Positions 6,294 through 37,039 of a stretch of DNA of 64,000 bases are shown here, one piece after another. Below the pieces are notes generated by a model. The model worked only from the letters and a program-made list of their open reading frames with translations, made no database searches and was not told the origin of the DNA. The DNA comes from Flavobacterium supellecticarium (GTDB taxonomy: Bacteria; Bacteroidota; Bacteroidia; Flavobacteriales; Flavobacteriaceae): the NCBI RefSeq assembly GCF_004801375.1, contig NZ_SSNZ01000002.1:558001-622000 (forward strand). Reading direction: 5' to 3'. Position 1 is the first letter of the stretch, and every line of letters starts with the position of its first letter. A program made the translations under genes and the position numbers.

Positions 6294-6305
6294 CTTCTTA
6301 ATCTT

Positions 6306-7088
6306 TTATTCCAGGATAATTCTTTCGGTTGTGATAACAGGTATAGTGTCGACTTTTTTAAAGTAATCGATCAACAGATTGCGGAGTTTATAATCCATAT
6401 CGTAGGATTGAATTCCCTTTTTAAAGAAATTCATGCTGTCGCCACCATTGGATAAATAATCGGAAGTAGCTACATAATATACCTGATCCTCCTGTAGTGG
6501 TTTTCCGTTTACGGTTAATGATTTGATGCTTAAAGTGTTCTTGTCGGCTACAATTTTTAATCCGGATAACGGATGCGGTTTGCGTTCTTTTAAAATATAT
6601 TCGGCCATTTCGCGAATCTGAGCGCCTTTTAATGCAACAATGATCAAACTATTTTCAAAAGGCATGATTTCAAAAGCGGTACGCGTGGTAACATCGCCTT
6701 TTGGCAGTGGTGCGCGGATTCCGCCATGGTTCAACAGACAGATATCAATATTTTTTTTCTCGCGTGACTGGAAAATCGGGTTGCCCATTTCGATGGTTGC
6801 ATCGGCCAATAGGTTTCCGATGGTTGTTTGCCAGGTTCCTTTGCTTTTGTCTAAGGTTTCGGGACAATAGGCCAGTACATGGTCGAGTTCCTGGTTGATG
6901 TGATTGCGGTAAGGCGCTACATAATCTTCGATAGATTTAACATCCGGGTAAACATTTGTGACACCGATTTGTTTTCCTTCAATTTTGGTGTTGTAGTACT
7001 TTTGCGTGGTACAGGAAACCGATAAAAAAATGCCCGTAAGGACAATAATTGAAGTTAAAATACGGTTATACTTTCTTAATTTTGTCAT
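6306..7088 (-). CDS. Lipoprotein 5'-nucleotidase C-terminal domain protein
   Basis: This protein of 260 residues corresponds to the substrate-binding C-terminal domain of UshA-type 5'-nucleotidases. It is anchored as a lipoprotein: a hydrophobic signal ends at S-V-S-C around residue 26. Recognisable family segments are NLLADATIEMG, LLNHGGIRAPLPKGDVT, TAFEIMPFENSLI and the C-terminal YYVATSDYLSNGGDSM. It lies upstream of, and in the same operon as, the metallophosphatase half, so the domain order on the DNA is the reverse of that in fused UshA. A divergent DUF6913-like gene starts 48 bases away. Confidence 0.86.
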   Translation of the reverse strand: MTKLRKYNRILTSIIVLTGIFLSVSCTTQKYYNTKIEGKQIGVTNVYPDVKSIEDYVAPYRNHINQELDHVLAYCPETLDKSKGTWQTTIGNLLADATIEMGNPIFQSREKKNIDICLLNHGGIRAPLPKGDVTTRTAFEIMPFENSLIIVALKGAQIREMAEYILKERKPHPLSGLKIVADKNTLSIKSLTVNGKPLQEDQVYYVATSDYLSNGGDSMNFFKKGIQSYDMDYKLRNLLIDYFKKVDTIPVITTERIILE

Positions 7089-7136
7089 TTGTTATAATCC
7101 TTATTTAATTAACTTTGTATTCCAAGTAAAAGTACT

Positions 7137-7655
7137 ATGTTTTTAAAAACAATAAAGGATTTTTCCCTAAAAAAAATCATTAAAAAAAGATTACCAAACT
7201 ATAAACTGACCGTTACAACAGAGAAAATACAAACGATTGGTTTATTGCTGGATGAAAGTTATTTTTCGGCTCAGGACAATCTGATAAAGGAGTTGGTTGC
7301 ACAGGGAATCCCGGAAAAAAACATTTCTGTTTTGATTTATAAAGATAAGATTAAGAAAAAAGAGGTCTTTAATTATCCTTTTTTTAGCAGAAAAGATATT
7401 GCTTTGGGAGGAGAACCGGTTAAAAAGGAAATACTGGATTTTTGCGAAAATCCGTTTGATATGCTGATTGGATATTATGATGTGGAAAAAGCACCGCTGG
7501 TTTGGGTGACATTACAGTCGAAAGCCAAATTTAAAGCCGGATTTGCTACGATCGATAAACGATTACATCACTTTATGATCGCTACGGTAGCCGAAAAGTA
7601 CCAGGAATTTGTATCGGAATTGTTTCGATACCTGAAAATTTTAAACAAAATATAA
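7137..7655 (+). CDS. DUF6913-like conserved protein
   Basis: This is a soluble 172-residue basic protein without signal peptide, resembling the family annotated DUF6913 in Flavobacteriia. That family is usually found just upstream of dapA, as here (9-base gap). The N-terminus is Lys-rich (KDFSLKKIIKKRLPNYK). A predicted alpha/beta core follows, with TIGLLLDESYFS, NISVLIYKD and a conserved FDMLIGYYDVEKAPLVW segment near residue 115. No catalytic motif is evident and the function is unknown. Confidence 0.75.
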   Translation: MFLKTIKDFSLKKIIKKRLPNYKLTVTTEKIQTIGLLLDESYFSAQDNLIKELVAQGIPEKNISVLIYKDKIKKKEVFNYPFFSRKDIALGGEPVKKEILDFCENPFDMLIGYYDVEKAPLVWVTLQSKAKFKAGFATIDKRLHHFMIATVAEKYQEFVSELFRYLKILNKI

Positions 7656-7664
7656 AAAATAACC

Positions 7665-8546
7665 ATGCAATCATTAATAGGAACCGGTGTTGCGCTTGTT
7701 ACACCATTTAAAAAAGATTTTTCGGTAGATACTGAAGCATTGACCCGAATTGTAAATTATGTTGTAGAAGGCGGCGTAGAATATTTGGTCGTTTTGGGAA
7801 CAACGGGCGAATCGGCAACATTAAGCCATGACGAAAAAGAATTGGTAATCAAAACGGTTATCGAGGCCAACAACGGTCGGTTGCCATTAGTATTGGGTGT
7901 TGGTGGAAACAACACGCATAAAGTGGTGGAAGAGCTAAAAACACGTGATTTTTCGGCTTTCCAGGCGGTACTTTCGGTGTCACCTTATTATAATAAACCA
8001 ACTCAGGAGGGGATTTACCAGCACTTTAAAGCGGTAGCGGAAGCATCACCAATACCGGTTATTTTATATAATGTACCGGGAAGAACGGCAAGTAATATGG
8101 CACCATCGACGGTAATCCGATTGGCAAATGATTTTAAAAATGTGATCGGAATTAAAGAAGCGGCAGGTGACATTGTGCAGGCTATGAAATTGATTCAGCA
8201 CAAACCGGAAGGCTTTTTGGTGATTTCCGGGGACGATATGATTACACTACCAATGGTTTTGGCCGGTGGTTCCGGAGTGATCTCTGTAATTGGTGAAGGA
8301 TTTCCAAAAGAGTTTTCAGAAATGGTACGTTTAGGCTTGGAACGAAAAGTTGATGAGGCTTATAAATTACATTATCTGTTGGCCGACAGTATCGATATGA
8401 TTTTCGAACAAGGTAATCCGGCCGGAATCAAAGCAGTGTTTAAATCACTGGGGTTATCGGAAGATACGGTGCGTTTGCCATTGGTAAATGTTAACGAAGA
8501 TTTAGCAAAACGCATTGACGATTTTGTAAAGAAAATAGTAAATTAG
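7665..8546 (+). CDS. dapA: 4-hydroxy-tetrahydrodipicolinate synthase
   Basis: DapA condenses pyruvate with aspartate semialdehyde in the lysine/diaminopimelate pathway. The product is 293 residues, the normal length for this class I aldolase. Visible catalytic residues are the T46-T47-G-E motif, the Tyr of YNVPGR (Y135) and the Schiff-base Lys164 in GIKEAAGD. The substrate-binding loop [13 protein letters not shown] is present. It follows the DUF6913-like gene by 9 bases and precedes ferritin by 23 bases, so the three are probably co-transcribed. Confidence 0.96.
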
Positions 8547-8569
8547 CCTTTAATTAAAAAAAGAAATAT

Positions 8570-9082
8570 ATGTTATCAAAAACTATTGAAGCAGCTGTTA
8601 ATAACCAGATTAAGGTAGAAGCGGATTCGTCACAGATATACTTGGCAATGGCATCTTGGGCTGAAGTTCAGGGTTTTGAAGGGATTGCAACATTTATGTA
8701 TGCACAGTCGGACGAAGAAAGAATGCACATGCTAAAGCTTGTGAAATATGTAAACCAACGTGGCGGTCAGGCACAAATTCCGGCTGTTATTGAGCCGTCA
8801 TTGGACTATTCGTCTTTTAAAGCATTGTTTACACAATTGTTCGAACACGAAGTAATGGTGTCGGCAAGTATCAACGAATTGGTTCACGTTTCCTTATCGG
8901 AAAGAGACTACGCAACGCATAACTTCCTGCAGTGGTATGTTTCGGAACAAATCGAAGAAGAAGCTACGGCACGAACTATTTTAGATAAAATCAATCTTAT
9001 TGGAGACGATAAAGGCGGATTGTACCTGTTTGATAACGATATGAAAAACTTCAGCGGAAATCAGCCGTCATCAGCACAATAA
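8570..9082 (+). CDS. ftnA: Ferritin (FtnA type)
   Basis: This cytoplasmic iron-storage ferritin has 170 residues in a four-helix bundle. The ferroxidase ligands match bacterial ferritin: E17, E50 and H53 (DEERMH), with the second pair of helices supplying E94-region acidic residues (FEHEVMVSAS) and Q127-region residues (SEQIEEE). No Met haem ligand of the bacterioferritin type is evident. A strong terminator follows. Confidence 0.93.
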   Translation: MLSKTIEAAVNNQIKVEADSSQIYLAMASWAEVQGFEGIATFMYAQSDEERMHMLKLVKYVNQRGGQAQIPAVIEPSLDYSSFKALFTQLFEHEVMVSASINELVHVSLSERDYATHNFLQWYVSEQIEEEATARTILDKINLIGDDKGGLYLFDNDMKNFSGNQPSSAQ

Positions 9083-9102
9083 TTTTACAAAAAACAAGTT
9101 TA

Positions 9103-9133
9103 AAAAAGATGTCATTTTACGGACATCTTTTTT
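9103..9133 (+). terminator. Terminator after ferritin
   Basis: AAAAGATGTC pairs with GACATCTTTT around an 8-base loop and is followed by a T run. It separates the dapA-ferritin unit from the bamD operon. Confidence 0.88.
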
Positions 9134-9157
9134 GTTTTTCGGCTAAAAAAAAAGATT

Positions 9158-9186
9158 TTGTAATCTCTAATTAATAACTAAATTTG
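9158..9186 (+). promoter_or_regulatory. Promoter of the bamD operon
   Basis: TTG at 9158-9160, an 18-base spacer and TAAATTTG at 9179-9186 match the Bacteroidota consensus. The leader to the bamD ATG would be about 54 bases. Confidence 0.7.
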
Positions 9187-9245
9187 CATTTGCTTTCGGA
9201 AAAAGACTTTTTCGGGTTTTGAAGGCATAAAAACTGATAAATAAA

Positions 9246-10052
9246 ATGAGTAAATTTCTATACGTTTTTCTTGTTGCGGTTCTGTTAACATCGTGTAGCC
9301 AGTATCAAAAGGCTTTAAAATCGGAAGATTTGGCTATGAAATATGAAGTGGCAACCAAAATGTACGACGCCGGAAAATATTCCAAAGCGATACGTTTGTT
9401 CGAACAGATAGCGGCGCCAAACCGGGGGAAACCTCAGGCGGAAAAACTGTTTTATATGTTTGCACAGTCCTACTATAAGACGAAACAATACTATTTGTCA
9501 GGTTACCAGTTCGAATCGTTTGTAGCGGGTTATCCGAAAAGTGAAAAAAGAGAAGAAGCCGCCTTTTTAGGCGCCAAAAGTTTCTATCAGTTATCACCGG
9601 TTTATTCGATAGACCAGACCGATACACAAAAAGGTATTGATAAATTACAAGAGTATATTAATGCCTACCCGGATTCGCCAAACATGGTCGAAGCGAATAA
9701 AATGATCACCGAATTACGTCAGAAGTTGGAGAAAAAAGCATTCGAAATCGCAAAACAATACAACACTATCGGAGAATGGTCACGTGATTATAATGCAGCG
9801 ATCAAGGCATTGGACAATTTTATCGTTGACTATCCGGGAACAATCTATAAAGAAGATGCTTTGTTTTATAAGTTCGATTCAACCTATAAACTGGCAATAA
9901 ACAGTATTCATTCCAAAATGGAAGACCGTTTGCATACGGCTAAAACAGCCTATTCGGCACTGATCCGTTTTAAGGAAGATACCAAATACAAAGCAAAAGC
10001 CGATGAAATGTTGGCTACTATTGATAAAGAATTACAACAATTTTCTAAATAA
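9246..10052 (+). CDS. bamD: Outer membrane assembly lipoprotein BamD
   Basis: BamD is the essential lipoprotein partner of BamA in outer-membrane beta-barrel insertion. The 268-residue product has a lipoprotein signal ending in L-L-T-S-C at about residue 17. Tetratricopeptide-like repeats follow, beginning KMYDAGKYSKAIRLFEQI, with QSYYKTKQYYLSGYQFESF and further units toward the C-terminus. It is the first gene of the run bamD - omega - coaBC - DUF4835 - recN, an order characteristic of Flavobacteriaceae. Confidence 0.93.
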   Translation: MSKFLYVFLVAVLLTSCSQYQKALKSEDLAMKYEVATKMYDAGKYSKAIRLFEQIAAPNRGKPQAEKLFYMFAQSYYKTKQYYLSGYQFESFVAGYPKSEKREEAAFLGAKSFYQLSPVYSIDQTDTQKGIDKLQEYINAYPDSPNMVEANKMITELRQKLEKKAFEIAKQYNTIGEWSRDYNAAIKALDNFIVDYPGTIYKEDALFYKFDSTYKLAINSIHSKMEDRLHTAKTAYSALIRFKEDTKYKAKADEMLATIDKELQQFSK

Positions 10053-10063
10053 TTAAGAACGTC

Positions 10064-10381
10064 ATGGATTTAAAAAAGACTACTGCTCCAGTTAACACGG
10101 TTACCTATAATAAGAGTAAGATTGAAGAACCGACAGGAAACGTGTATGAAGCGATCACCATTATGGCAAAAAGAGCAAATCAGATTAATTCCGAAATTAA
10201 AAAAGAATTGATCGATAAGCTTGACGAGTTTGCTACTTACAATGACAGTCTTGAGGAAATTTTTGAAAACAAAGAGCAAATCGAAGTTTCCAAGTTCTAC
10301 GAAAAACTACCAAAACCACATGCTTTAGCAGTACAAGAGTGGTTGGATGGTAAAATCTATTACAGAGACTCAAATAAATAA
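10064..10381 (+). CDS. rpoZ: RNA polymerase omega subunit, Bacteroidota type
   Basis: This 105-residue protein matches the diverged omega subunit of Bacteroidota, which helps assemble and stabilise RNA polymerase. The omega-like segment is VYEAITIMAKRANQINSEIK (residues 28-47), in which the R-A-N-Q-I part corresponds to the conserved core. A charged C-terminal part follows. It lies 11 bases after bamD and 5 bases before coaBC, the normal context in this family. Confidence 0.85.
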   Translation: MDLKKTTAPVNTVTYNKSKIEEPTGNVYEAITIMAKRANQINSEIKKELIDKLDEFATYNDSLEEIFENKEQIEVSKFYEKLPKPHALAVQEWLDGKIYYRDSNK

Positions 10382-10386
10382 TCCTA

Positions 10387-11595
10387 ATGTCTGTTTTAAG
10401 CGGTAAAAAAATAATACTGGGTGTTTCTGGTGGAATTGCCGCATATAAAACGGCAACATTAGTTCGACTTCTTATCAAAGCAGGTGCTCAGGTTCAGGTG
10501 ATCATGACGCCTGCTTCTAAAGATTTTGTAACGCCCTTAACGCTGTCGACCTTATCCAGGCGACCGGTTTTTTCGTCTTTTTTTAACGAAGAAGATGAGA
10601 ATGCCGTTTGGAACAACCATGTCGATTTAGCGCTGTGGGCCGATCTGATCGTAATTGCACCGGCTACGGCCAATACCCTTTCTAAAATGGTAAATGGCAA
10701 TTGCGATAATCTACTCATTGCAACCTATCTTTCTGCAAAATGTCCGGTTTATTTCGCTCCGGCGATGGATCTGGATATGTATAAACATCCGTCTACCATT
10801 GCGGGTTTTAACGCGCTTCGGGATTTTGGAAATCATATTATTCCGGCCGAAAAAGGTGAATTAGCCAGTGGACTTTCCGGCGAAGGTCGTATGGCCGAAC
10901 CCGAAAATATTGTCGCTTTTCTCGAAAAAGACCTGGAAGATCAATTGCCATTACGCGGAAAAAAAATACTGGTAACAGCAGGTCCTACATACGAAGCAAT
11001 CGATCCGGTGCGTTTTATTGGAAATCATTCGTCCGGAAAAATGGGCTATGATATTGCCAAAGCTGCCGCCGATGCCGGAGCCGAGGTGATTTTAGTATCC
11101 GGGCCAACACATTTGGATATCCAGCATGAACACATTCAGATCCGACGGGTGCAATCGGCACAGGAAATGTATGACGCGTGTCACGATTGTTTTGATCAGG
11201 TCGATACGGCTGTTTCGGCTGCTGCGGTTGCGGATTATCGTCCGAAAAATGTCGCCAGTCAGAAAATAAAAAAGAATGATGCCGCGTTTTCCATAGAACT
11301 GGAAAAAACAAAAGATATACTCGCTTCGCTGGGCGAGGTCAAAAAAAATCAGTTTTTGATTGGATTTGCACTGGAAACCGAAAATGAAATTGAGCATGCC
11401 AGGCAGAAAATTCAGAAAAAAAACTTAGATTTGATAGTTTTAAATTCATTAAACGATACCGGTGCCGGTTTTGGTAAACCCACCAATAAGGTAACGTTTA
11501 TTGATAAGGATTTTTTAGTCGAGCCGATGGAACTTAAAACCAAAGAAGAAGTCGCTCAGGATATTGTCAACAAAATAATAGCTCATTATGCGTAA
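10387..11595 (+). CDS. coaBC: Bifunctional phosphopantothenoylcysteine decarboxylase / phosphopantothenate-cysteine ligase
   Basis: CoaBC performs two consecutive steps of coenzyme A synthesis. The 402-residue protein has the FMN-dependent decarboxylase domain first: VSGGIAAYK, the active-site His in NNHVDLALWADLIVIAP, and PAMDLDMY. The ligase domain follows from about residue 190, with VTAGPTYEAIDPVRFIGN, the S-S-G-K-M-G motif and the K-I-K-K segment. The last 8 bases overlap the DUF4835 gene, which suggests translational coupling. Confidence 0.96.
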   Translation: MSVLSGKKIILGVSGGIAAYKTATLVRLLIKAGAQVQVIMTPASKDFVTPLTLSTLSRRPVFSSFFNEEDENAVWNNHVDLALWADLIVIAPATANTLSKMVNGNCDNLLIATYLSAKCPVYFAPAMDLDMYKHPSTIAGFNALRDFGNHIIPAEKGELASGLSGEGRMAEPENIVAFLEKDLEDQLPLRGKKILVTAGPTYEAIDPVRFIGNHSSGKMGYDIAKAAADAGAEVILVSGPTHLDIQHEHIQIRRVQSAQEMYDACHDCFDQVDTAVSAAAVADYRPKNVASQKIKKNDAAFSIELEKTKDILASLGEVKKNQFLIGFALETENEIEHARQKIQKKNLDLIVLNSLNDTGAGFGKPTNKVTFIDKDFLVEPMELKTKEEVAQDIVNKIIAHYA

Positions 11596-12475
11596 CTGGA
11601 TACTACTTATACTTACTTTTTTATCGTTAAACAGCTTTGCGCAGGAACTGAATTGTAGTGTAAGTGTAAATTACAGTCAGATTACAAACGTAAACCCGCA
11701 GATTTTTAAAACCCTGGAAAAGCAGGTGACGGAGTTTATGAACAATACCAAATGGACTGAAAAAACCTTTAAGCAAAACGAACGAATCAACTGTGTGGTT
11801 TTTATCACGGTAAACGGTTTCGATTCCAATAACTTCGATGCGACCATTCAGGTGCAATCGTCCCGACCAATTTACAATTCGACCTATTCGTCGCCGGTGT
11901 TTAATATTAACGACAAAGATTTTAAATTCCGTTATGTCGAGTTTGAAAATATGTATTTTAACCCGAATAGCTTTGATTCCAACCTGATTTCGGTTTTGGC
12001 ATTCTATGCCAATATGATTATCGGAATCGATGCCGATACCTATCAGAATATGGGCGGTGCAAAATATTTGGATGCGGCTTTGGCAATTGCCAATGTGGCG
12101 CAATCCAGCGGTTATGAAGGATGGGTACAATCGGAAAAACGAAATACGCGTTACTATTTGATCAATGATATGTTATCGAATACCTATGCGCCTTTTAGAG
12201 AAGCGATGTACCAGTATCATTTACAGGGATTGGATCGAATGGCTGAAAATCAGAAAACAGCCAAGGAAAAAGTAATCGCTTCGATTGAAACCCTTTCAAA
12301 AGTACACGACGTACGTCCGAATTCATTCCTGATGCGGGTGTTTTTCGATGCTAAAGTCGACGAATTGGTAAGCATGTATTCCGGCGGACCAAATGTGGAT
12401 ATTGTACAACTGACTGAAAAATTAAATAGAATATCTCCATTAAATTCTTCTAAATGGAGTAATATAAAATACTAA
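11588..12475 (+). CDS. DUF4835 family secreted protein
   Basis: This 295-residue protein carries a cleavable signal peptide (MRNWILLILTFLSLNSFAQ) and matches DUF4835, a Bacteroidota family regularly placed between coaBC and recN. Its function is unknown; a periplasmic or outer-membrane location is inferred from the signal. Two segments are prominent: residues around NSTYSSPVFNINDKDFKFRY, and IDADTYQNMGGAKYLDAA. It overlaps coaBC by 8 bases. A -7-type box (TAAATTTG) overlaps its stop codon and may serve recN. Confidence 0.88.
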   Translation: MRNWILLILTFLSLNSFAQELNCSVSVNYSQITNVNPQIFKTLEKQVTEFMNNTKWTEKTFKQNERINCVVFITVNGFDSNNFDATIQVQSSRPIYNSTYSSPVFNINDKDFKFRYVEFENMYFNPNSFDSNLISVLAFYANMIIGIDADTYQNMGGAKYLDAALAIANVAQSSGYEGWVQSEKRNTRYYLINDMLSNTYAPFREAMYQYHLQGLDRMAENQKTAKEKVIASIETLSKVHDVRPNSFLMRVFFDAKVDELVSMYSGGPNVDIVQLTEKLNRISPLNSSKWSNIKY

Positions 12476-12480
12476 ATTTG
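12473..12480 (+). promoter_or_regulatory. Possible -7 promoter element ahead of recN
   Basis: TAAATTTG fits TAnnTTTG and overlaps the DUF4835 stop codon, 26 bases before the recN ATG. No TTG sits at the usual upstream distance, so this is only a candidate internal promoter. Confidence 0.35.
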
Positions 12481-12506
12481 TGTTTTACTAAACCGCTGCA
12501 CAAATT

Positions 12507-14162
12507 ATGTTAACATCCTTATCGATTAAAAATTTTGCGCTGATTGAACAGTTGGATATTCGTTTTTCTAACGAATTTTCAATTATAACCGGAGAAACCG
12601 GAGCAGGAAAATCGATCTTATTGGGCGCGTTAGGCCTGGTGTTGGGTCGTCGTGCGGATTTAACCTCCCTAAAAGATAAAGAACAGAAATGTGTGATCGA
12701 AGCACATTTCGACATTCAACCGTACGCATTACAGCCTTTTTTTGAGGAAAATGATCTCGATTACGAAGAGACCACCATTATTAGAAGGGAAATCCTACCA
12801 TCGGGTAAATCCAGAGCTTTCGTCAATGATAGTCCGGTAAACCTACAGGAATTACAGGAGTTAGGCGATTTTCTACTGGATATTCATTCGCAGCACCAAA
12901 CACGGGAATTAACCGATGAGGCCTATCAGTTACAAATTCTGGATGCCTTAGCCGGTCACCAGGATTTATTGCAGGATTATAGAGCCCGTTTGTCGCGTTA
13001 TAAAGCCATCCGTTCGCAATTAAAACAATTGCTGTCGGAAAAAGACGCCTTGTTAAAAGAGCAGGATTATAATAGCTTCTTATTGGAAGAGCTATTGGCA
13101 GCCAATTTAAAAGACGGTGAGCAGGAAGAACTGGAAGCTGCTTTCGAACGACTAAACAACGTGGAGTTTATCCGGGAAGCACTGGACAAATCGATAATGA
13201 TTGCCAATGAAGAGCAAATCGGACTTATTCAGAACTTAAAAGAAGTCAAAGCGACCTTGCTAAAAATAGCACCGTTGTCTATAGAATATCAGGATTTGTC
13301 CGACCGGGTTTCCAGTGTGCTGATTGAGTTTGATGATATTGCCGATGAATTACAACGGCATTCCGAAGCCTTGATGAGCGACCCGGAACAATTGGAACTG
13401 ACTAATCAGAAATTACAAAATATCTATTCGCTTCAGAAAAAACATCAGGTGAATACCGTTGCCGAACTATTGGAAATCCAACAGTCGCTTGACCAAAAAG
13501 TCGTTCAGGCGGACGATATGGATAGCCGGATTGACACCTTAAACCGGGAAGAAACGGAGTTAAAAGAAAGTTTAAACGGATTGGCGGAAACGATTTCGGC
13601 AAACCGGACAAAAGCAGCACCGGTTTTAATCGGACAAATAACCGAAATACTCGCGGAACTGGGCATGCCAAATGCCCGTTTTGAATTCGATATCCGCCCG
13701 TCGGAAACGTTTTTGCCATTGGGGAAAGATGAAGCGCAATTGTTGTTTTCGGCCAACAAAGGAACCAGTTTCGGACTGCTGAAAAAAGTGGCTTCCGGAG
13801 GGGAAATGTCGCGGATTATGCTGGCTGTAAAAGCCATTCTGGCCAATTATACCAAATTGCCTACTATTATATTTGATGAAATCGATACCGGAGTTTCCGG
13901 GGAAATTGCCCATAAAATGGGGGATATTATGAAAAAGATGAGTCGGAAAATGCAGGTTTTTGCCATTACCCATTTACCGCAAATTGCCGCCAAAGGAAAC
14001 CAGCATTATAAAGTATTCAAATTCGTTCAGGGAGAAACTACGGTTTCCGAATTAAAACTGCTGACCAATGAGGAGCGTATTGTGGAGATCGCGGAAATGC
14101 TTTCCGGAAAAGACATCTCCGATTCGGCACGTAACCACGCCCGATCGTTATTAATGGATTAA
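12507..14162 (+). CDS. recN: DNA repair protein RecN
   Basis: RecN is an SMC-like ATPase that acts in double-strand break repair. The 551-residue protein has the N-terminal Walker A GETGAGKSIL near residue 30 and the early LLDIHSQHQTRELTDE segment. A coiled-coil middle region is followed by the C-terminal ABC signature VASGGEMSRIMLA and Walker B PTIIFDEIDTGVSG. Length is typical. It is preceded by DUF4835 and followed, in the same reading frame and only 12 bases after its stop codon, by a TPR protein gene. Confidence 0.96.
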   Translation: MLTSLSIKNFALIEQLDIRFSNEFSIITGETGAGKSILLGALGLVLGRRADLTSLKDKEQKCVIEAHFDIQPYALQPFFEENDLDYEETTIIRREILPSGKSRAFVNDSPVNLQELQELGDFLLDIHSQHQTRELTDEAYQLQILDALAGHQDLLQDYRARLSRYKAIRSQLKQLLSEKDALLKEQDYNSFLLEELLAANLKDGEQEELEAAFERLNNVEFIREALDKSIMIANEEQIGLIQNLKEVKATLLKIAPLSIEYQDLSDRVSSVLIEFDDIADELQRHSEALMSDPEQLELTNQKLQNIYSLQKKHQVNTVAELLEIQQSLDQKVVQADDMDSRIDTLNREETELKESLNGLAETISANRTKAAPVLIGQITEILAELGMPNARFEFDIRPSETFLPLGKDEAQLLFSANKGTSFGLLKKVASGGEMSRIMLAVKAILANYTKLPTIIFDEIDTGVSGEIAHKMGDIMKKMSRKMQVFAITHLPQIAAKGNQHYKVFKFVQGETTVSELKLLTNEERIVEIAEMLSGKDISDSARNHARSLLMD

Positions 14163-14174
14163 AAGGATTTTATT

Positions 14175-14699
14175 TTGGAAGAAAATATTAGTTACTACGA
14201 AAATCAGTTCATCCGGGCTGATGCTTTGATTTCGGATGGAAATGTTTCCGAAGCAAAGGAAATTCTAGAAGAAATCCTGGATCAGTATCCGGATTTTGGG
14301 AAAGCACACAATCACCTGGGGTGGATCTATTATACAAAGCTGAGTAATCACGAAAAAGGGGCTTATCACTACAAACTGGCCATGCGTTTTGATCCGAATT
14401 ACCCGGCGGCTTACCTGAATTATACCTATTTATTAGTCGATCTGGGACGATTGGAGGAAGCCAAAGAGCATATCGCCGAAACGCTAAACACACTTGAAGG
14501 AGCGGATAAAGCATCCTATCATAGCGAATTGGGACGGATTTATGAAATGGAATTTAACCTGATTCCGGCTTACGAAGCCTATAAAAAAGCGGCATCCTAC
14601 GGATTTGGCGCTCAGTTTATTGAGAATATGAAGATGAATATGAACAGGGTGAAAGATAAAATGACTATTTTTGAAAAATTAAAATTGAAATTTACTTAA
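14175..14699 (+). CDS. TPR-repeat protein
   Basis: This is a cytoplasmic tetratricopeptide protein of 174 residues without signal peptide. Repeats are visible: ALISDGNVSEAKEILEEIL, AHNHLGWIYYTKLSNHEKGA, and a unit ending PAAYLNYTYLLVDLGRLEEA. The start must be a non-ATG codon. The frame is opened by the recN stop at 14160-14162, and the only reasonable initiator is TTG at 14175 (an ATT lies at 14172); the next Met is far inside. It is likely co-expressed with recN. The binding partner is unknown. Confidence 0.82.
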   Translation: MEENISYYENQFIRADALISDGNVSEAKEILEEILDQYPDFGKAHNHLGWIYYTKLSNHEKGAYHYKLAMRFDPNYPAAYLNYTYLLVDLGRLEEAKEHIAETLNTLEGADKASYHSELGRIYEMEFNLIPAYEAYKKAASYGFGAQFIENMKMNMNRVKDKMTIFEKLKLKFT

Positions 14700-14709
14700 A
14701 AACATAGCT

Positions 14710-15540
14710 ATGTACAATTTATTAAAAGGAAAAAGAGGGATCATTTTTGGAGCGTTAGATGAGAATTCAATCGCCTGGAAAACGGCAGAGCGCGTACATG
14801 AAGAGGGAGGAATATTCGTTTTGTCCAATGCTCCGATCGCAATGCGTATGGGTACGATCAACCAGCTGGCAGAAAAAACAGGTTCCCAGATAATTCCGGC
14901 CGATGCTACTTCCGTTGCAGATTTGGAAAACCTGGTAGAAAAGGCAATGGAAATCCTTGGTGGTAAGATTGACTTCGTTTTGCACTCCATCGGGATGTCT
15001 GTAAATGTAAGAAAAGGAAACCACTATACGAATCAGAATTATGATTTTACAGAAAAAGGATGGGACGTATCTGCGGTATCCTTTCATAAAGTAATGCAGG
15101 TTTTATACAAAAAAGACGCCATGAACGAATGGGGAAGTATTGTAGCTTTAACCTATATGGCGGCGCAACGTGTATTCCCGGATTATAATGATATGGCCGA
15201 TAATAAAGCCTATTTAGAATCGATTGCGCGTAGCTTCGGATATTTCTTCGGAAGAGATAAAAAAGTACGTGTAAACACGATTTCACAATCACCTACACCA
15301 ACGACTGCCGGTCAGGGAGTAAAAGGTTTCGGTGGATTTATTGCTTTTGCCGATAAAATGTCACCGCTAGGGAATGCTTCTGCTTTAGATTGTGCCAACT
15401 ATACCGTAATGATGTTCTCGGATCTTACTAAAAAAGTAACGTTGCAAAACCTGTTACACGATGGAGGATTCTCGAATATGGGTGTAAGTCAGGAAGTAAT
15501 GGAAGCTTTCGAAGAAGGATTAGCCAATAAAAACGACTAA
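14710..15540 (+). CDS. fabI: Enoyl-[acyl-carrier-protein] reductase FabI
   Basis: FabI catalyses the last reduction in each cycle of type II fatty-acid synthesis. The 276-residue SDR protein has the divergent NADH-binding start G-K-R-G-I-I-F-G-A-L-D-E-N-S-I-A-W typical of FabI. It also has FVLHSIGMS and the catalytic Tyr-x6-Lys arrangement around NDMADNKAYLESIA. A terminator follows, so it ends the bamD-recN-fabI run. Confidence 0.95.
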   Translation: MYNLLKGKRGIIFGALDENSIAWKTAERVHEEGGIFVLSNAPIAMRMGTINQLAEKTGSQIIPADATSVADLENLVEKAMEILGGKIDFVLHSIGMSVNVRKGNHYTNQNYDFTEKGWDVSAVSFHKVMQVLYKKDAMNEWGSIVALTYMAAQRVFPDYNDMADNKAYLESIARSFGYFFGRDKKVRVNTISQSPTPTTAGQGVKGFGGFIAFADKMSPLGNASALDCANYTVMMFSDLTKKVTLQNLLHDGGFSNMGVSQEVMEAFEEGLANKND

Positions 15541-31976: not shown

Positions 31977-33500
31977 ATGAAAAAAAATTATGTTGTAGTG
32001 GCACTGCTGAGTGTAGTGCTTTTTTCGGCCTGTTCTAAAGATGAAGATCGCTATTCGGGTGCCAACCAATCCGGGCAGGAGTTATTTCAAAAAGATACCC
32101 TGTCTAAAGCAGCGATCAATTCCCGTATTGATCAAATTAGCAATGAAAAAGGATCGTTTCATTGGAAAGATGGTGGCTACCAGATGTTATGGAGTGCTAT
32201 TATCCGCGGAAACAACACCGTTACGATCGGGTATGGTGTGAATGCCGATGATTTCGACAGCCACAAATCCGGGAAAGGACGTGAAATTAAAGCCCGTTTG
32301 AAAAGTATTATTCTGGAATCTGAAAAAGGATCCGAAAAAGAGGTGATTTTCAAAGAGGATGATGATCTAAACCTTATGGATGTGGTGATTAAAAAACGCG
32401 AAACATTGGAAGCGTTATTAAAAGAACAACATATCCGTTATATCGAACCAGCCGATTACCGTTATTTTGATACTGTAGAGGCACGTCCGGTTTATGGACC
32501 GGAAGTAAGTTCGAGTTCGGGTTGCGGTTTTTCATCGGCTACCATTGCGACAGCCGATTATACAACGGTAACACCGAATGCGCGAGTGCCGTGGAATTTT
32601 TACAAGCACAATATCCCGGGAGCCTGGAATTACAGTACCGGAAGCGGGATCACCATTGGGGTTGTCGACACCGGATTATCGCCGCAACAAAGCCTGATGG
32701 GAAGCAGTTTTAACTCCGGCGCTTCGTCCGGCAGAACCGTACAGCGTTTTGGTGTTTATGTCGATTCGATCTGGCCGTGGTCTTCGGGATTTGACGGACC
32801 GGATGATCAATGCGGACACGGAACCAGTATGGCATCGGTGGCAACAGCACCAAGAAACAATAGCGGATTACCGGTGGGTGTGGCCTATAATGCCAGTCTG
32901 ATTACGTATAGAGCGGCTTCGAATGTGGTTCTGGACGGTTATCACGAACAGGAAGGCGTTAAACTGGCCTTTACCGCTCTTGGAAATAACAACAATGTTA
33001 AAATCATTTCGATGTCGATGGGGCATATTATTTCGGTTGGAAAAATTGAAGACGGTGTAAAATATGCCTATAGCAAAGGAAAACTGATTTTCTGCGCCGG
33101 TGGAACCTCTACCAGTTTTACCAACTTTGCGGGTGTGATCTTCCCGGCTTCGATGAGCGAGGCGGTTGCGGTAACCGGTGTTAAAGAAGGCACGACTTTT
33201 CAGGAATGTGATGTGTGTCATAAAGGAGGTAAAATCGACTTTACAATCGTAATGGAACGCGCTGGAACCAACAACAATGTTCCGGTATTGAGCTACTACA
33301 ATAACCAGGCGAATTACGTAGGCGGATCGTCGGTGGCTACTGCGACGACAGCTGGTATCGCGGCTTTGGTTTGGGCTAAAAATCCGGGCTGGACACGCGA
33401 TCAGGTGTTGACAAAAATGAAGCAGTCGTCGACATTCTATCCGACTAAAAATGCCGATTTCGGACATGGAAATATCAATGCGCAGCTAGCGGTGCAATAA
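31977..33500 (+). CDS. S8 (subtilisin-like) serine protease lipoprotein
   Basis: This surface or periplasmic lipoprotein has 507 residues with lipobox F-S-A-C around residue 19. A propeptide-like N-terminal part precedes the S8 domain. The catalytic triad is visible: D231 in GVVDTGL, H281 in CGHGTSMAS, and S452 in GGSSVATATTAG. The segment that normally carries the oxyanion-hole Asn (AAGN) reads C-A-G-G, so that residue is not evident. Four cysteines occur (SSGCGF, QCGHG, ECDVC). No T9SS domain is seen at the C-terminus. The gene has its own promoter and terminator. Confidence 0.9.
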   Translation: MKKNYVVVALLSVVLFSACSKDEDRYSGANQSGQELFQKDTLSKAAINSRIDQISNEKGSFHWKDGGYQMLWSAIIRGNNTVTIGYGVNADDFDSHKSGKGREIKARLKSIILESEKGSEKEVIFKEDDDLNLMDVVIKKRETLEALLKEQHIRYIEPADYRYFDTVEARPVYGPEVSSSSGCGFSSATIATADYTTVTPNARVPWNFYKHNIPGAWNYSTGSGITIGVVDTGLSPQQSLMGSSFNSGASSGRTVQRFGVYVDSIWPWSSGFDGPDDQCGHGTSMASVATAPRNNSGLPVGVAYNASLITYRAASNVVLDGYHEQEGVKLAFTALGNNNNVKIISMSMGHIISVGKIEDGVKYAYSKGKLIFCAGGTSTSFTNFAGVIFPASMSEAVAVTGVKEGTTFQECDVCHKGGKIDFTIVMERAGTNNNVPVLSYYNNQANYVGGSSVATATTAGIAALVWAKNPGWTRDQVLTKMKQSSTFYPTKNADFGHGNINAQLAVQ

Positions 33501-33520
33501 TTTAAGTATGATCAAATATA

Positions 33521-33552
33521 AAGGGTTGCCCAATGAAGGCAACCCTTTTTTA
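33521..33552 (+). terminator. Terminator after the S8 protease gene
   Basis: AAGGGTTGCC pairs with GGCAACCCTT around a seven-base loop, then a T run. A palindrome copy follows 15 bases later. Confidence 0.88.
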
Positions 33553-33566
33553 TTTGTAACTTCTTC

Positions 33567-33599
33567 AGACCTGACAGGTTTTCGAAACCTGTCAGGTCT
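33567..33599. repeat. Dispersed palindromic repeat, copy 2 (left border of the RiPP island)
   Basis: Arms AGACCTGACAGGTTT / AAACCTGTCAGGTCT enclose the loop TCG. Compared with copy 1, the second base pair from the outside is swapped on both arms, so pairing is kept. It marks the left edge of an A/T-rich stretch. Confidence 0.9.
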
Positions 33600-33763
33600 T
33601 TTAGAAAGTATTTTTATTGATCAAATAAAAACTAAAGACAATTCAGTACAAATAGGAACCATTAAAACTAATGGTATTTCTGATAGATTGTTTTGATTTA
33701 ACTTTAAGATACGACCTAAGAAAAATACAGATCGAATATCATTAAGGAATTAAATAAGTAAAG

Positions 33764-34375
33764 ATGGGAAGGATTTTAAAAAAAATATCTTTTTATGGAA
33801 TAATTTGTTTTGGTTTTATAATGATACTATTCACATCATGTAGTTGTTCAAAACCCTATTCTGAGGAAATGAAGACTGAATTGGCTAGAATGTTTAAAAA
33901 AGATCAAGAACTTCAGGATTGGGATGTCAAGCGATTAGAGGATCGTAAATATACAGATTCTATGCAAACTGAAATGTCTAAAACTGTTAGAGCGAATTGT
34001 GAGACGATTAAAAAATATTATAAGGAATGTGGTTATCCGGGTTTAAAAGAGAATGGTAGGGATGCCTGTGTAAGATTTTGGTTAGTTGTACAACATAGTG
34101 ACCACGATGTAATATTCCAGGAAAAAATGCTAAAGGCTCTTAAAAGGCAATTAAAGAAAAAGAACGCTCTGGTAAGAAATTATGCGTATTTGTATGACAG
34201 AGTAATGAAAAATAAAGGGAAAAAGCAAAAATACGGAACACAACTGGGACGTCGTACTGGTGGAGAAAAAATGCATCCAATTCCGGAACTTGAATTTCCT
34301 GATAAGGTTGATGAACTGAGGAAGGAAATGGGATTGGGGACATTAAAAGAATATGTCGATTCGTTTGAAAATTAA
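33764..34375 (+). CDS. Lipoprotein with DUF6624-like features
   Basis: This is a predicted lipoprotein of 203 residues: a hydrophobic signal ends at F-T-S-C around residue 27. The remainder is charged and helical, and the late Q-K-Y-G-T-Q segment (near residue 158) resembles the conserved YGTQ of DUF6624 proteins. The WLVVQHSDHDVIFQEKMLKA stretch also fits that family. Function is unknown. The gene ends 31 bases before the RiPP precursor, in the same A/T-rich island and direction, so it may be transcribed with it. Whether it takes part in that system is not shown. Confidence 0.65.
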   Translation: MGRILKKISFYGIICFGFIMILFTSCSCSKPYSEEMKTELARMFKKDQELQDWDVKRLEDRKYTDSMQTEMSKTVRANCETIKKYYKECGYPGLKENGRDACVRFWLVVQHSDHDVIFQEKMLKALKRQLKKKNALVRNYAYLYDRVMKNKGKKQKYGTQLGRRTGGEKMHPIPELEFPDKVDELRKEMGLGTLKEYVDSFEN

Positions 34376-34406: not shown

Positions 34407-34580
34407 ATGAGAAAATTAGAATCTTTCAAAAAAGAAATCTTCACTAAAGAAGAAATGAAAACAATCAAAGGTGGCTTAATATATGCTAGTCCTACTAAAA
34501 CAAAGTGTAATGGAACAACTACTGGACTTCCAGATGGTACTCGTGTCCAAGATTGCGGTGACAGTGATAACATTGATTAA
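34407..34580 (+). CDS. RiPP precursor peptide with GG leader (grasp-with-spasm type)
   Basis: This 57-residue peptide is too short for standard ORF calling. The leader MRKLESFKKEIFTKEEMKTI ends in K-G22-G23, the double-Gly site of Bacteroidota natural-product precursors. The core of 34 residues starts LIYASPTKTKCNG, then TTTGLPDGTRVQDC, and ends with an acidic tail (GDSDNID). It is rich in Thr and Asp and has two Cys (C34, C50). Thr plus Asp fits ester or amide crosslinking by an ATP-grasp ligase. A terminator hairpin follows and then the two maturases. The function of the mature product is unknown. Confidence 0.85.
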   Translation: MRKLESFKKEIFTKEEMKTIKGGLIYASPTKTKCNGTTTGLPDGTRVQDCGDSDNID

Positions 34581-34595
34581 TTAGATTAATTGTTT

Positions 34596-34637
34596 AAAAA
34601 TGTAAAGACTGGTTTATTAGTAGTCTTTACATTTTTT
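34596..34637 (+). terminator. Internal terminator/attenuator between precursor and maturases
   Basis: AATGTAAAGACT (34599-34610) pairs with AGTCTTTACATT (34622-34633), extended by three A-T pairs, around an 11-base loop and followed by T residues. It ends 18 bases before the ATP-grasp ATG. Partial termination here would give more precursor than enzyme mRNA. Confidence 0.85.
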
Positions 34638-34654
34638 AGAAATTACTTTAATAT

Positions 34655-35692
34655 ATGATATTAATACTTTCCCATGAGCATATCGATGAACCGACTAATA
34701 CGATTATTGATTGGCTAAGTTTTTACAATGCGCGTTTTTTGCGTTTAAATGGTGATGACTTTTTACAAAATAAATATGTAAAAATTGATATTAATAATAC
34801 TACTGTTATAACGAACTACGGACAAGTAATCAATTCCAATGAAATCAGTATCGTTTGGTATAGGAGATGGATTAAGCCAACAGAGAAAAAAACTTTTTTC
34901 GAAAAATTTAAGCAACTGAACTTTACCAATGAAGAAGCGCTTTTAGTGGAGACCTATGATAAATATTTACAAAAGGAATCAACAACTTATGTTAATGGCA
35001 TTTTTTCAGTATTTAAGGATAAATTATGGATACCAAAGCCGAGTAAAGCCAGAGGAAACATTAATAAGTTAGATGTACTCTTACGAGCAAAAGATATAGG
35101 GATGAAAATTCCAAATACTATTGTGACATCTTCAAAAAAAGAAGTTGCATTATTTTTGAAAGCAAATGGTAGTATAATCACTAAGCCTATCTATGAGGCA
35201 AATTGTTTTGATTATAAAGGAGAATCGGCACCAATGTATACTAAAGAAGTTTCCGAGAATGATGTAAAAGCTTTTCCTCAATTATTTTTTCCGTCATTAT
35301 TTCAAAAAAAGATTGACAAGCAGTTTGAAATAAGGACATTTATTCATCGAAATAAAGTTTACTCTATGGCAATGTTTAGCCAAAATGATGTACAAACAAG
35401 TATCGATTTCAGAAATTATAATTGGGTAAAACCTAATAGATATGTTCCTTTTAAATTACCACAGAAGGAAGAAGAAAAGCTATTAAAGTTATTAAATGAC
35501 CTTGATTTAAATACGGGTTCCATTGATTTAATTTATGATGATAAAGGGAACTATGTATTCTTGGAAATCAATCCGGTTGGACAATTCGGAATGGTCTCTA
35601 TAAATTGTAATTACAATTTAGAAAAAATCATTGCAAACGACTTGATAGCATTGAGTAACGAACAAAAAAGAACCGATGAAAGAGATAATTAA
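34655..35692 (+). CDS. ATP-grasp peptide maturase (grasp-with-spasm system)
   Basis: This ATP-grasp ligase of 345 residues is predicted to form side-chain links in the precursor encoded just upstream. The start MILILSHEHIDEPTNTIIDW and FLRLNGDDF is characteristic of the grasp-with-spasm maturases. It is followed by IVWYRRWIKP, the K-P-I-Y-E-A nucleotide-binding region, FQKKIDKQFEIRTFIHRNKV, and the metal-binding D-L-I-Y-D-D and FLEINPVGQFG near the C-terminus. The ATP-grasp core looks complete. Its stop overlaps a 56-residue ORF by 17 bases. Codon use is markedly A/T rich. Confidence 0.9.
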   Translation: MILILSHEHIDEPTNTIIDWLSFYNARFLRLNGDDFLQNKYVKIDINNTTVITNYGQVINSNEISIVWYRRWIKPTEKKTFFEKFKQLNFTNEEALLVETYDKYLQKESTTYVNGIFSVFKDKLWIPKPSKARGNINKLDVLLRAKDIGMKIPNTIVTSSKKEVALFLKANGSIITKPIYEANCFDYKGESAPMYTKEVSENDVKAFPQLFFPSLFQKKIDKQFEIRTFIHRNKVYSMAMFSQNDVQTSIDFRNYNWVKPNRYVPFKLPQKEEEKLLKLLNDLDLNTGSIDLIYDDKGNYVFLEINPVGQFGMVSINCNYNLEKIIANDLIALSNEQKRTDERDN

Positions 35693-35846
35693 AGTTTTAG
35701 AATTAGAATATGATGTTCCATTCCAATTAACATTAGTAAATCCAAAAAGTAGTAAAACGAATAATTTAGTTTTGAAGTTTTGTTATTCAAGTTCTCATAA
35801 AACGAGGCATCTTATTGTTAGGCCATTCTATAAAAAGACATTCTGA
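35676..35846 (+). CDS. Small uncharacterised ORF between the two maturase genes
   Basis: This 56-residue ORF starts at the ATG at 35676 inside the end of the ATP-grasp gene (17-base overlap, different frame) and stops at 35844-35846. That is eight bases before the ATG of the SPASM gene. The product, beginning MKEIIKVLELEYDVPFQLTL, is basic and has one Cys, with no signal or membrane helix. I do not recognise it. The tight spacing suggests translational coupling. It could instead be a remnant of a longer gene or a chance ORF. Confidence 0.45.
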   Translation: MKEIIKVLELEYDVPFQLTLVNPKSSKTNNLVLKFCYSSSHKTRHLIVRPFYKKTF

Positions 35847-35853
35847 TTTTGAT

Positions 35854-36873
35854 ATGAGAAATTTTCTATCAGACATTCCGTTTCATTTATTTGCTTGCTG
35901 TATTTTGGTTAAAGGTTACAATAGATCGTGTATTTATGATTTGCAAAGAGACGATTTTGAATACATTCCGAATTCGCTGTACGATATTTTAAAAGAGTCG
36001 AAAAATCTAAGTTTTGATGCTCTTTTAAGCTCATTTGACCAGAAAGAAGATAAGGAGACTTTGTTAGATTATTTTAAATTTTTATGTGACAAGGAGTTTA
36101 TTTTTTTCTCGAATTTGGATAGCTCTTTTTTTCCTAAATATGAAATTGAATTTTCAAAGCCTTATCATGTTTCTACAATGGTAGTCGATATTGATGTCTT
36201 TGAATTAGCCTATATCAATAAATTATTAGATACTATTTTTAAGGTAAAAGTGGAGTGTTTAGTATTGCGTTTTATTGCTACTACTTATGAAAATATTATA
36301 AAAGTATTGAAAGAATTTAATGATATGCCTACTCGAATACTACAGGTATTGATTGATAAAAATACCAGTGTTGAAAGAGAATTAGTGGAAGGAGTTTTTA
36401 AAACCAACGATAGAGTCTCATTAATTGTTAGTTCAAGCGATGAAGAAGAGTACATTGATCAATTTGATAGAGGTGTATTCTTTAGTACAAAGAGGGATAT
36501 CATTAATGAAAAAAAAGGGATAACTGATATAGCTGATTTTACGCCGAATCTGGACTTGTATATGGAATCTAACTTTTATAATACATTTTATAACAGAAGA
36601 GTTTACATTGACCGTAATGGAAATATATTAAGATATGAAGGTGATACAATGACTTTTGGAAATAGTATTGATGTCGAATTAAGTATGATATTACAATTGC
36701 CCGACTTTAAAAAATATTGGAATATAAAAAAAGATGATATTCAAAAGTGTAAAGACTGTGAATATCGGTATATGTGCGTAGATAATAGATTGCCAATAAA
36801 AACGAACAATGATATTTGGGGATTTGATGAAGAATGTAATTACGATCCGTATCAGTCAGAGTGGAAAAAATGA
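35854..36873 (+). CDS. SPASM-domain peptide maturase (grasp-with-spasm system)
   Basis: This 339-residue protein starts at the ATG at 35854 (MRNFLSDIPFHLFACCILVK). A TTG 13 codons upstream opens the frame but is not family-like. The conserved N-terminus continues CIYDLQRDDFEYIPNSLYDI. The middle resembles a radical-SAM barrel, yet the expected CxxxCxxC cluster motif is absent. The C-terminal SPASM module is intact: C-K-D-C-E-Y-R-Y-M-C, then D-N-R and EECNYDPY. It is therefore expected to bind an auxiliary iron-sulfur cluster and probably to handle the precursor peptide, but not to cleave SAM. It is the last gene of the locus. Confidence 0.87.
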   Translation: MRNFLSDIPFHLFACCILVKGYNRSCIYDLQRDDFEYIPNSLYDILKESKNLSFDALLSSFDQKEDKETLLDYFKFLCDKEFIFFSNLDSSFFPKYEIEFSKPYHVSTMVVDIDVFELAYINKLLDTIFKVKVECLVLRFIATTYENIIKVLKEFNDMPTRILQVLIDKNTSVERELVEGVFKTNDRVSLIVSSSDEEEYIDQFDRGVFFSTKRDIINEKKGITDIADFTPNLDLYMESNFYNTFYNRRVYIDRNGNILRYEGDTMTFGNSIDVELSMILQLPDFKKYWNIKKDDIQKCKDCEYRYMCVDNRLPIKTNNDIWGFDEECNYDPYQSEWKK

Positions 36874-37005: not shown

Positions 37006-37039
37006 AACACCCGACAGGTTTTAAAACCTGTCAGGTGTT
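37006..37039. repeat. Dispersed palindromic repeat, copy 3 (right border of the RiPP island)
   Basis: ACACCCGACAGGTTTT is followed directly by AAAACCTGTCAGGTGT, with one mismatch in the arms (C for T) and no loop; a T run follows. It lies between the convergent SPASM and GNAT genes. The 132 bases before it (36874-37005) hold nothing I recognise. Confidence 0.9.

Follow-up and report, generated by a model that had tools for sequence, protein, structure and literature searches.

A grasp-with-spasm graspetide operon in Flavobacterium supellecticarium whose SPASM protein is a likely radical-SAM pseudo-enzyme

Gene content of the locus

We describe a locus for a ribosomally synthesized and post-translationally modified peptide (RiPP) in a 64,000-nucleotide stretch of Flavobacterium supellecticarium DNA (the window; NCBI RefSeq assembly GCF_004801375.1, contig NZ_SSNZ01000002.1, positions 558,001 to 622,000), with coordinates counted from the first base of that stretch. 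The unit is made up of five genes—for a DUF6624 protein, a precursor peptide, an ATP-grasp ligase, an LPL-type small protein, and a SPASM protein—and, judged from its sequence, it is a genuine grasp-with-spasm graspetide operon of the Bacteroidota, an already-described class that corresponds to branch 5 of PMC8939145. New here are evidence that the operon's SPASM protein is a pseudo-enzyme related to radical S-adenosylmethionine (SAM) enzymes, and the block-wise absence, in a large group of its relatives, of the cysteines expected to bind auxiliary cluster I (Aux I). The grasp-with-spasm families were reportedly defined by Haft and Basu in 2011. The features of the unit are the following.

33764 to 34375, + strand: DUF6624 protein, 203 residues, first gene of the unit (PF20329, 50.9 bits, cut-off 27)
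34407 to 34475, + strand: precursor leader, 23 residues, KGG end (proportions of nonsynonymous and synonymous differences, pN 0.07 and pS 0.50, against genome G1142)
34476 to 34577, + strand: precursor core, 34 residues, LIYASPTKTKCNGTTTGLPDGTRVQDCGDSDNID (translation of the open reading frame, ORF; ortholog alignment)
34596 to 34636, + strand: RNA hairpin between precursor and ligase gene (minimum free energy of the gap -22.2 kcal/mol, z -5.7)
34655 to 35692, + strand: ATP-grasp graspetide synthetase, 345 residues (TIGR04192, 278.3 bits, cut-off 230)
35676 to 35846, + strand: LPL-type small protein, 56 residues, VPFQL near the N-terminus and FYKKTF at the end (ORF position, orthologs)
35854 to 36873, + strand: SPASM-only protein, 339 residues, without CX3CX2C, a likely pseudo-radical-SAM partner (TIGR04193, cysteine census, AlphaFold)
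35875 to 36114, + strand: predicted N-terminal domain, residues 8-87, resembling a RiPP recognition element (RRE) (VIA-align matches to RREs)
36748 to 36837, + strand: cysteines C299, C302, C308, and C328, of the type that binds auxiliary cluster II (Aux II) (CX2CX5C ... C; spacing, alignment)

The initial annotation had placed three ORFs here, and all three lie on the + strand where it put them: the precursor at 34407-34580, the ATP-grasp gene at 34655-35692, and the SPASM gene ending at 36873. Its grouping of a precursor and two enzymes in one unit is right for these three but overlooked two members, the ORF at 35676-35846 and the DUF6624 gene at 33764-34375, and to call the precursor too short for ORF calling was an overstatement; an ORF listing at 40 residues picks it up. 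The grasp-with-spasm assignment of both enzymes is borne out, as a search with the family models returned the ligase at the score given above and the SPASM protein, which sits right at the TIGR04193 cut-off.

Precursor peptide and ligase

The precursor has the 57 residues previously described, divided into a 23-residue leader with a KGG end and a 34-residue core that contains six Thr, five Asp, and two Cys. It lies below the cut-off in both models that it matches (TIGR04149, 17.0 bits against 25; NF047798, 17.6 against 23.5) and is absent from the TIGR04194 matches, among which its G1142 ortholog scores 13.1 against a cut-off of 33. Just 8 branch 5 precursor clusters are recognised by such models according to PMC8939145, with 79 more unrecognised. 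We accept the precursor as a gene because its orthologs are conserved. Compared across Flavobacterium genomes, it has a 77% identical ortholog in G1142 (pN 0.149, pS 0.751; the synonymous rate, dS, is saturated) and another in the genome G841 that is 55% identical over 51 aligned residues (nonsynonymous rate, dN, 0.36; dS 1.53)—a pattern that shows apparent purifying selection. Shared by the cores of all three orthologs are T.T[KR]C and, in the tail, DC.D.D..D, so that four Asp and two each of Thr and Cys are kept.

In G1142 (z -6.1) and G841 (z -7.2), too, a strong hairpin forms in this gap ahead of the ligase gene, with unrelated stem sequences. Among 90-nucleotide regions upstream of ligase genes, 20 of the 64 that passed the filters, from related and not independent loci, have z below -3, compared with 3 of 43 controls (14 and 3, respectively, below -4; Mann-Whitney p 0.009). 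The hairpin at 34596-34636 is not among the calls of a terminator scan; it is probably a read-through attenuator that would favour the precursor, or a 3'-end stabiliser.

The solved relatives of the ligase are AMdnB (7m4s), CdnC (7mgv), two entries named ATP grasp ligase (5ig9 and 5ig8), and an MvdD-like protein (9bou). The DFR motif is kept (D251-F-R253); K177, E225, R227, D291, and N306 are also present; and the protein departs from one, with Met240 for Ile, of the 21 columns that at least 93% of 80 SPASM-linked ligases share. Because the DFR motif is kept and 20 of the 21 conserved columns match, core crosslinks of the ester or amide type are the chemistry to expect. Alternatively, the enzyme might ligate amino acids or activate a C-terminus, and form no side-chain macrocycles. 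The leader could be cited in favour of this, since it contains no Pro and hence no Phhx(1,2)h motif (a motif also absent from branch 5 precursors according to PMC8939145), as could the literature: no product of any grasp-with-spasm locus was found in the open-access literature searched, where the graspetides of PMC9576775 were not checked for such an origin. That search agrees with the initial description of the product as uncharacterised, though a search of this kind cannot prove that nothing is in print. The identity of the solved relatives, the intact DFR motif, and the two Thr and four Asp kept in three orthologs all speak against such an activity, and we consider it quite unlikely.

Cysteine ligands of the SPASM family

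The SPASM protein starts at ATG 35854, with a longer ORF from TTG 35815 also possible. Against TIGR04193 (cut-off 175) it scores 174.7 bits as a 339-residue protein and 176.6 as an open frame in a genome scan; the G841 ortholog scores 183.5. For a census of cysteines in the family, we collected loci by searching with TIGR04192, TIGR04193, the window protein, and patterns of the group without Aux I-type cysteines; ORFs of at least 280 residues with E <= 1e-10 were counted, distinct by a 110-residue stretch, and two fragments (E 1e-10 to 1e-9) are uncounted. The SAM-cluster motif CX3CX2C occurs in none of the 88 distinct SPASM-family ORFs, window protein included (0/68 in the first set), nor does the looser CX2-5CX2-4C upstream of their SPASM cysteines. 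CX3CX2C is present in the four weakest profile matches (L105, L113, L043, and L042; E 1e-8 to 2e-4), which we take to belong to other families from partial matches and lengths only.

The auxiliary cysteines fall into blocks: 45 of the 88 ORFs have four Aux I-type and four Aux II-type cysteines, 37 (the window's included) have none and four, and 6 are mixed or cut. These six exceptions are L154, cut at the locus end; L079, without the last Cys; L103, with none of the eight; and L069, L071, and L078, which keep one or two of the Aux I type. As the loci were partly gathered by patterns of the Aux I-less group, its share is no natural frequency. The two SPASM paralogs of the window genome belong to the group with all eight. 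In the window protein, the seven-Cys SPASM motif (CX9-15GX4C, CX2CX5CX3C, C) is incomplete, with only CX2CX5C and the last C present; the fourth Aux I-type position lies upstream of this motif. All four Aux II-type cysteines are conserved throughout an alignment of 28 proteins (28 of 28).

The assignment to Aux I and Aux II is based on the published SPASM motif (PMC6231123) and on the ligands of anSME, which are C317, C320, C326, and C348 for Aux II and C255, C261, C276, and C330 for Aux I (PMC5491770); in SuiB, the linker before the SPASM domain supplies the first Aux I ligand (PMC6231123). In a tree of 68 proteins, the 36 with full cysteines make up one side of a branch with support of 100/98, in an alignment that includes the Cys columns, with the bootstrap unsettled and 23 of 65 inner branches open; Aux I may have been lost once in the family. 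According to PMC5491770, the active enzymes discussed there are very unlikely to have kept Aux II while losing Aux I—here, that state coincides with loss of the SAM site.

The cluster that is left could do more than hold the fold together: it might act on the peptide by redox or Lewis-acid chemistry, or gate the ligase in response to oxygen or redox state. The invariance of the four Aux II-type cysteines in the aligned relatives would suit such a role; however, a structural cluster would show equal conservation, and in one relative, L103, the alignment shows all eight cysteines missing (no further check was made of its reading frame). We regard an active role as unlikely.

Predicted fold of the SPASM protein

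An AlphaFold model built from 28 sequences has a predicted local distance difference test score (pLDDT) of 86.3 and a predicted template modelling (TM) score of 0.82. The model predicts an RRE-like domain followed by a barrel and a SPASM domain, an arrangement shared with peptide maturases but with the SAM-cluster cysteines missing. Within residues 3-87, VIA-align places RREs at Z values below 8, with 80 residues aligned in each case: PbtF (8t19) at Z 6.8 with a root-mean-square deviation (rmsd) of 2.4, and TbiB1 (5v1v) at Z 6.7 with 2.6. The top row is BtrN (Z 12.8, rmsd 4.1, 177 aligned), followed, likewise within residues 97-339, by PqqE (12.1), SuiB (11.9), and anSME (11.5); TigE matches over residues 8-332 (Z 11.4) and CteB over 13-332 (Z 11.2). 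In Foldseek, four PDB matches have E below 0.001, namely TigE (8.6e-6) and three CteB chains (5.9e-5 to 1.7e-4).

A functional radical-SAM maturase, adding a second modification such as thioethers on the core Cys, as PMC8939145 supposed, would fit the best fold matches, which are radical-SAM enzymes and include several peptide maturases. Cys is indeed present in the core and in many candidate precursors of relatives, and PMC8939145 labels the family radical SAM, branch 5 proteins included. We reject this role, which appears extremely improbable: neither CX3CX2C nor its looser form occurs in any of the 88 family ORFs, and the window protein is without the Aux I-type cysteines too. No statement that a grasp-with-spasm SPASM protein is without the radical-SAM motif was found in the open-access literature searched; the NCBIfam name reads only 'SPASM domain peptide maturase', and from this wording we infer that its authors may have known of the missing motif. 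The SPASM protein is thus likely a radical-SAM pseudo-enzyme that probably carries an RRE; since it has neither the radical-SAM motif nor the Aux I-type cysteines, it is more plausibly a partner than a second modifying enzyme.

The LPL-type and DUF6624 proteins

The LPL-type ORF overlaps the 3' end of the ligase gene, stop codon included, and leaves 7 bases between itself and the SPASM start. Its place and sequence fit the LPL family, which lies directly upstream of branch 5 SPASM genes and has been likened to PqqD (PMC8939145). A small ORF occupies this position in 82 of 84 distinct ligase-SPASM junctions, a count made with a permissive ORF rule and no random control. When these ORFs are aligned, Pro fills 89% of non-gap rows (a weak L-P-L) and Lys 93% near the end (FYKPISKI-like tails); hydrophobic-Pro-hydrophobic is present in 55 of the 82. 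In the window protein the motif is degenerate (VPFQL).

The DUF6624 protein has a hydrophobic N-terminus followed by Cys, lipoprotein-like by eye, and its gene ends 31 bases before the precursor. A homologue is found in the same place in G841 (PF20329, 48 bits) and in G1142. Position and description suggest that it is probably the 'cluster 23' family of PMC8939145, and DUF6624 has been noted in graspetide groups 18, 20, 23, and 42 (PMC13097080). With our own iterated profile, a DUF6624-like neighbour is found in 16 of 37 loci with at least 2.5 kb upstream. This profile may have drifted, because the Pfam model misses the two profile-found neighbours of the window genome that were tried (L055 and L162, described below); in the whole genome it finds only the window's gene and one on contig 10. 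The predicted structure (pLDDT 85.6) is mostly helical, with no clear match in the PDB (best Foldseek E 0.23, best Z 7.5).

Orthologs and selection

We searched 398 genomes of the genus with the window SPASM protein, and 30 (its own included) have some match. Besides the window's, only G1142 has a full-length copy of more than 50% identity (73%); the next full-length matches reach at most 36%. The G841 ortholog, 53% identical in its SPASM protein, comes from a sample of the phylum and is of the same genus. TIGR04193 proteins above the cut-off were found in 12 of 395 genomes of the phylum sample and 17 of 397 of a family sample. The order DUF6624, precursor, ligase, LPL, SPASM is kept in both G1142 and G841. 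Beside the G841 operon (L123) there are, by eye, transposase-like ORFs just downstream and a lantibiotic-dehydratase-like ORF on the other side (7553-8093, 14081-14950), a possible RiPP hot spot.

A divergent SPASM protein at its family cut-off, with the Aux I-type cysteines gone, could also be losing its function in a decaying remnant of a locus. Comparison with G1142 argues otherwise: dN is well below dS in four genes—the ligase (85% identity, dN 0.077, dS 0.762), the LPL gene (66%, 0.182, 0.578; 38% identity to G841), the SPASM gene (73%, 0.152, 0.913), and the DUF6624 gene (72%, 0.196, 0.977)—and the precursor likewise has pN far lower than pS. The absence of Aux I is, moreover, shared by the 37 of 88 relatives noted above, in several genera, and decay is very improbable.

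Proposed maturation

Our preferred reading, to which we attach a probability of roughly 0.62, is a grasp-with-spasm graspetide operon with a pseudo-radical-SAM partner and stepwise maturation by the ligase. The GG-leader precursor would be made first, with the hairpin before the ligase gene keeping the peptide in excess over the enzyme. To judge from the predicted fold, the SPASM protein would then bind the leader through its RRE-like domain; this protein should perform no radical chemistry, because the SAM-cluster cysteines are missing, and its remaining Aux II is probably a structural centre. It is likely a non-radical partner that presents the leader to the ATP-grasp macrocyclase, with the LPL protein perhaps coupling the two. 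The ligase, in keeping with its family, would activate core Asp side chains and join them to Thr (ester) or Lys (amide). Lastly, a C39 transporter encoded elsewhere would cut after GG and export the peptide, whose two core Cys would form a disulfide and not a thioether.

Several points weigh against this reading. The cysteine counts come from related proteins and are not independent events; the assignment to Aux I and Aux II follows from motif spacing and the anSME ligands, not from a solved sequence relative. VIA-align warns that matches at the Z values of the two RREs perhaps reflect just a common arrangement, and the TM scores of the four Foldseek matches are just 0.39-0.43. Neither the SPASM protein nor two profiles retrieved a radical-SAM chain in three sequence searches of the PDB; the best E was 0.11, apart from OT3 (7uek, E 3e-4), a chain matched in the barrel region only. 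The LPL proline is absent from both orthologs (VSFQL in G1142, VEFQL in G841), and the G841 leader ends in KGA, not KGG. Export in trans is a guess, because no C39 transporter gene lies in the window.

A more specific version is tentative, and we lean against it: the synthetase would have a split leader function, with the dead radical-SAM protein capturing the leader and the LPL protein supplying in trans the proline-hydrophobic hook with which other graspetide leaders engage the ligase in cis. If this were true, an unrelated ligase would have taken over a radical-SAM maturase as a scaffold that presents its substrate, the maturase's SAM cluster shed family-wide and Aux I shed in one large group.

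The pseudo-enzyme evidence shifts which experiment comes first. The label 'radical SAM enzyme' (PMC8939145) steers experimenters to radical-type modifications that, as far as the sequences indicate, the protein cannot make; and if the ligase cannot work without the SPASM protein, expressing just ligase and precursor together would fail. The family is also a clear instance of a radical-SAM/SPASM scaffold that has shed iron-sulfur ligands in blocks.

Comparison with known systems

With the known grasp-with-spasm class (TIGR04192, TIGR04193, and TIGR04194; branch 5 of PMC8939145) the locus has in common the ATP-grasp ligase, the SPASM protein, an LPL gene upstream of the SPASM gene, a lipoprotein-like gene, and a GG precursor. 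It differs from the class models in a SPASM protein at the cut-off and without the four Aux I-type cysteines, and in a precursor below the TIGR04149 cut-off. CteB (5wgg) and TigE (8vpo) are radical-SAM RiPP maturases with SPASM domains, and CteB has an RRE (PMC6231123); the window model aligns with them over the ranges given above, yet the protein is without their SAM-cluster motif and Aux I-type cysteines. Twitch-domain enzymes (BtrN, SkfB) resemble it in having one auxiliary cluster; Twitch, however, retains Aux I without Aux II, the reverse of what is seen here.

Pseudo-radical-SAM proteins of GG-Bacteroidales systems (TIGR04150, which we take to be IPR026418) are likewise radical-SAM relatives in GG-peptide loci, and the G841 SPASM ortholog is weakly like that model (24.1 bits, cut-off 250). 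They have been reported alongside a true radical-SAM enzyme (PMC10352776), whereas the partner in the window is an ATP-grasp ligase. The rosaritide synthetase MirB requires a partner, MirC, in what has been called the first partner-dependent graspetide synthesis (PMC13097080). The likeness lies in a graspetide synthetase with a required partner whose N-domain is weakly RRE-like; MirC differs in its SurA-like C-domain, in having no SPASM domain, and in its graspetide group (21), while all of group 14 co-occurs with a SPASM-domain protein (PMC13097080). CdnC (chryseoviridin) and microviridin-type ligases (7mgv, 5ig8, 5ig9, 7m4s) belong to the same ligase family as the window's. Microviridins are not known to have a SPASM partner and carry PFFARFL-type leader motifs; the window locus has the partner, and no such motif was seen in its leader.

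Boundaries of the unit

Two terminator-like hairpins are likely the boundaries.

33520 to 33548, no strand assigned: terminator-like hairpin after the S8 protease gene, likely upstream boundary (terminator scan)
37013 to 37032, + strand: terminator-like hairpin after the SPASM gene, likely downstream boundary (terminator scan)

The scan gave 3 terminator-like sites, two of them the hairpin at 33520-33548 on either strand, where shuffled sequences average 1.1. Near-alike hairpins, ACAGGTTT...AAACCTGT, flank the unit at 33568-33598 and about 37008-37035, and may be terminators repeated in the genome. Upstream lies an S8 family protease gene (31977-33500) with a lipoprotein-like N-terminus, found in the same place in G1142; we left it out of the unit, as the hairpin at 33520-33548 follows it and no such gene was seen by eye around the G841 operon. 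An ORF at 33508-33696 (62 residues) was ruled out as a gene; it crosses the terminator-like hairpin and has no family match. The promoter motif TTG...TAnnTTTG was not found before the DUF6624, precursor, or ligase genes, and a sigma-70 scan was at chance level (24 sites, 22.0 expected).

Export and other loci in the genome

The genome has two C39-peptidase matches, neither of them in the window; one is at 198 kb on contig C2. A candidate for a shared export locus is L162 (contig C2 of the genome, about 194.9-203.1 kb; locus positions 4964-13096, minus strand), which encodes a C39 ABC transporter, an HlyD protein (42.7 bits, cut-off 22.2), a VKOR protein (49.9 bits, cut-off 27.5; its thioredoxin part is under its cut-off), a 337-residue protein matched by our DUF6624-derived profile and not by Pfam, a 298-residue protein without a Pfam match, and GG-type peptides. 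One of these peptides has GQDCGDN where the window core has VQDCGDSDN; the common QDCGD was not tested against chance. No ligase was seen beside the transporter and peptides of L162.

Two further grasp-with-spasm loci, L055 (C2:842030-844242) and L056 (C2:407841-410032), each have a candidate GG precursor, a neighbour matched by the DUF6624 profile, and a full-cysteine SPASM protein. On contig C1 (123258-125281), tandem ATP-grasp ligases (L018 and L020) score 134 and 128 bits, below the TIGR04192 cut-off, and are perhaps, at a guess, a microviridin-like locus.

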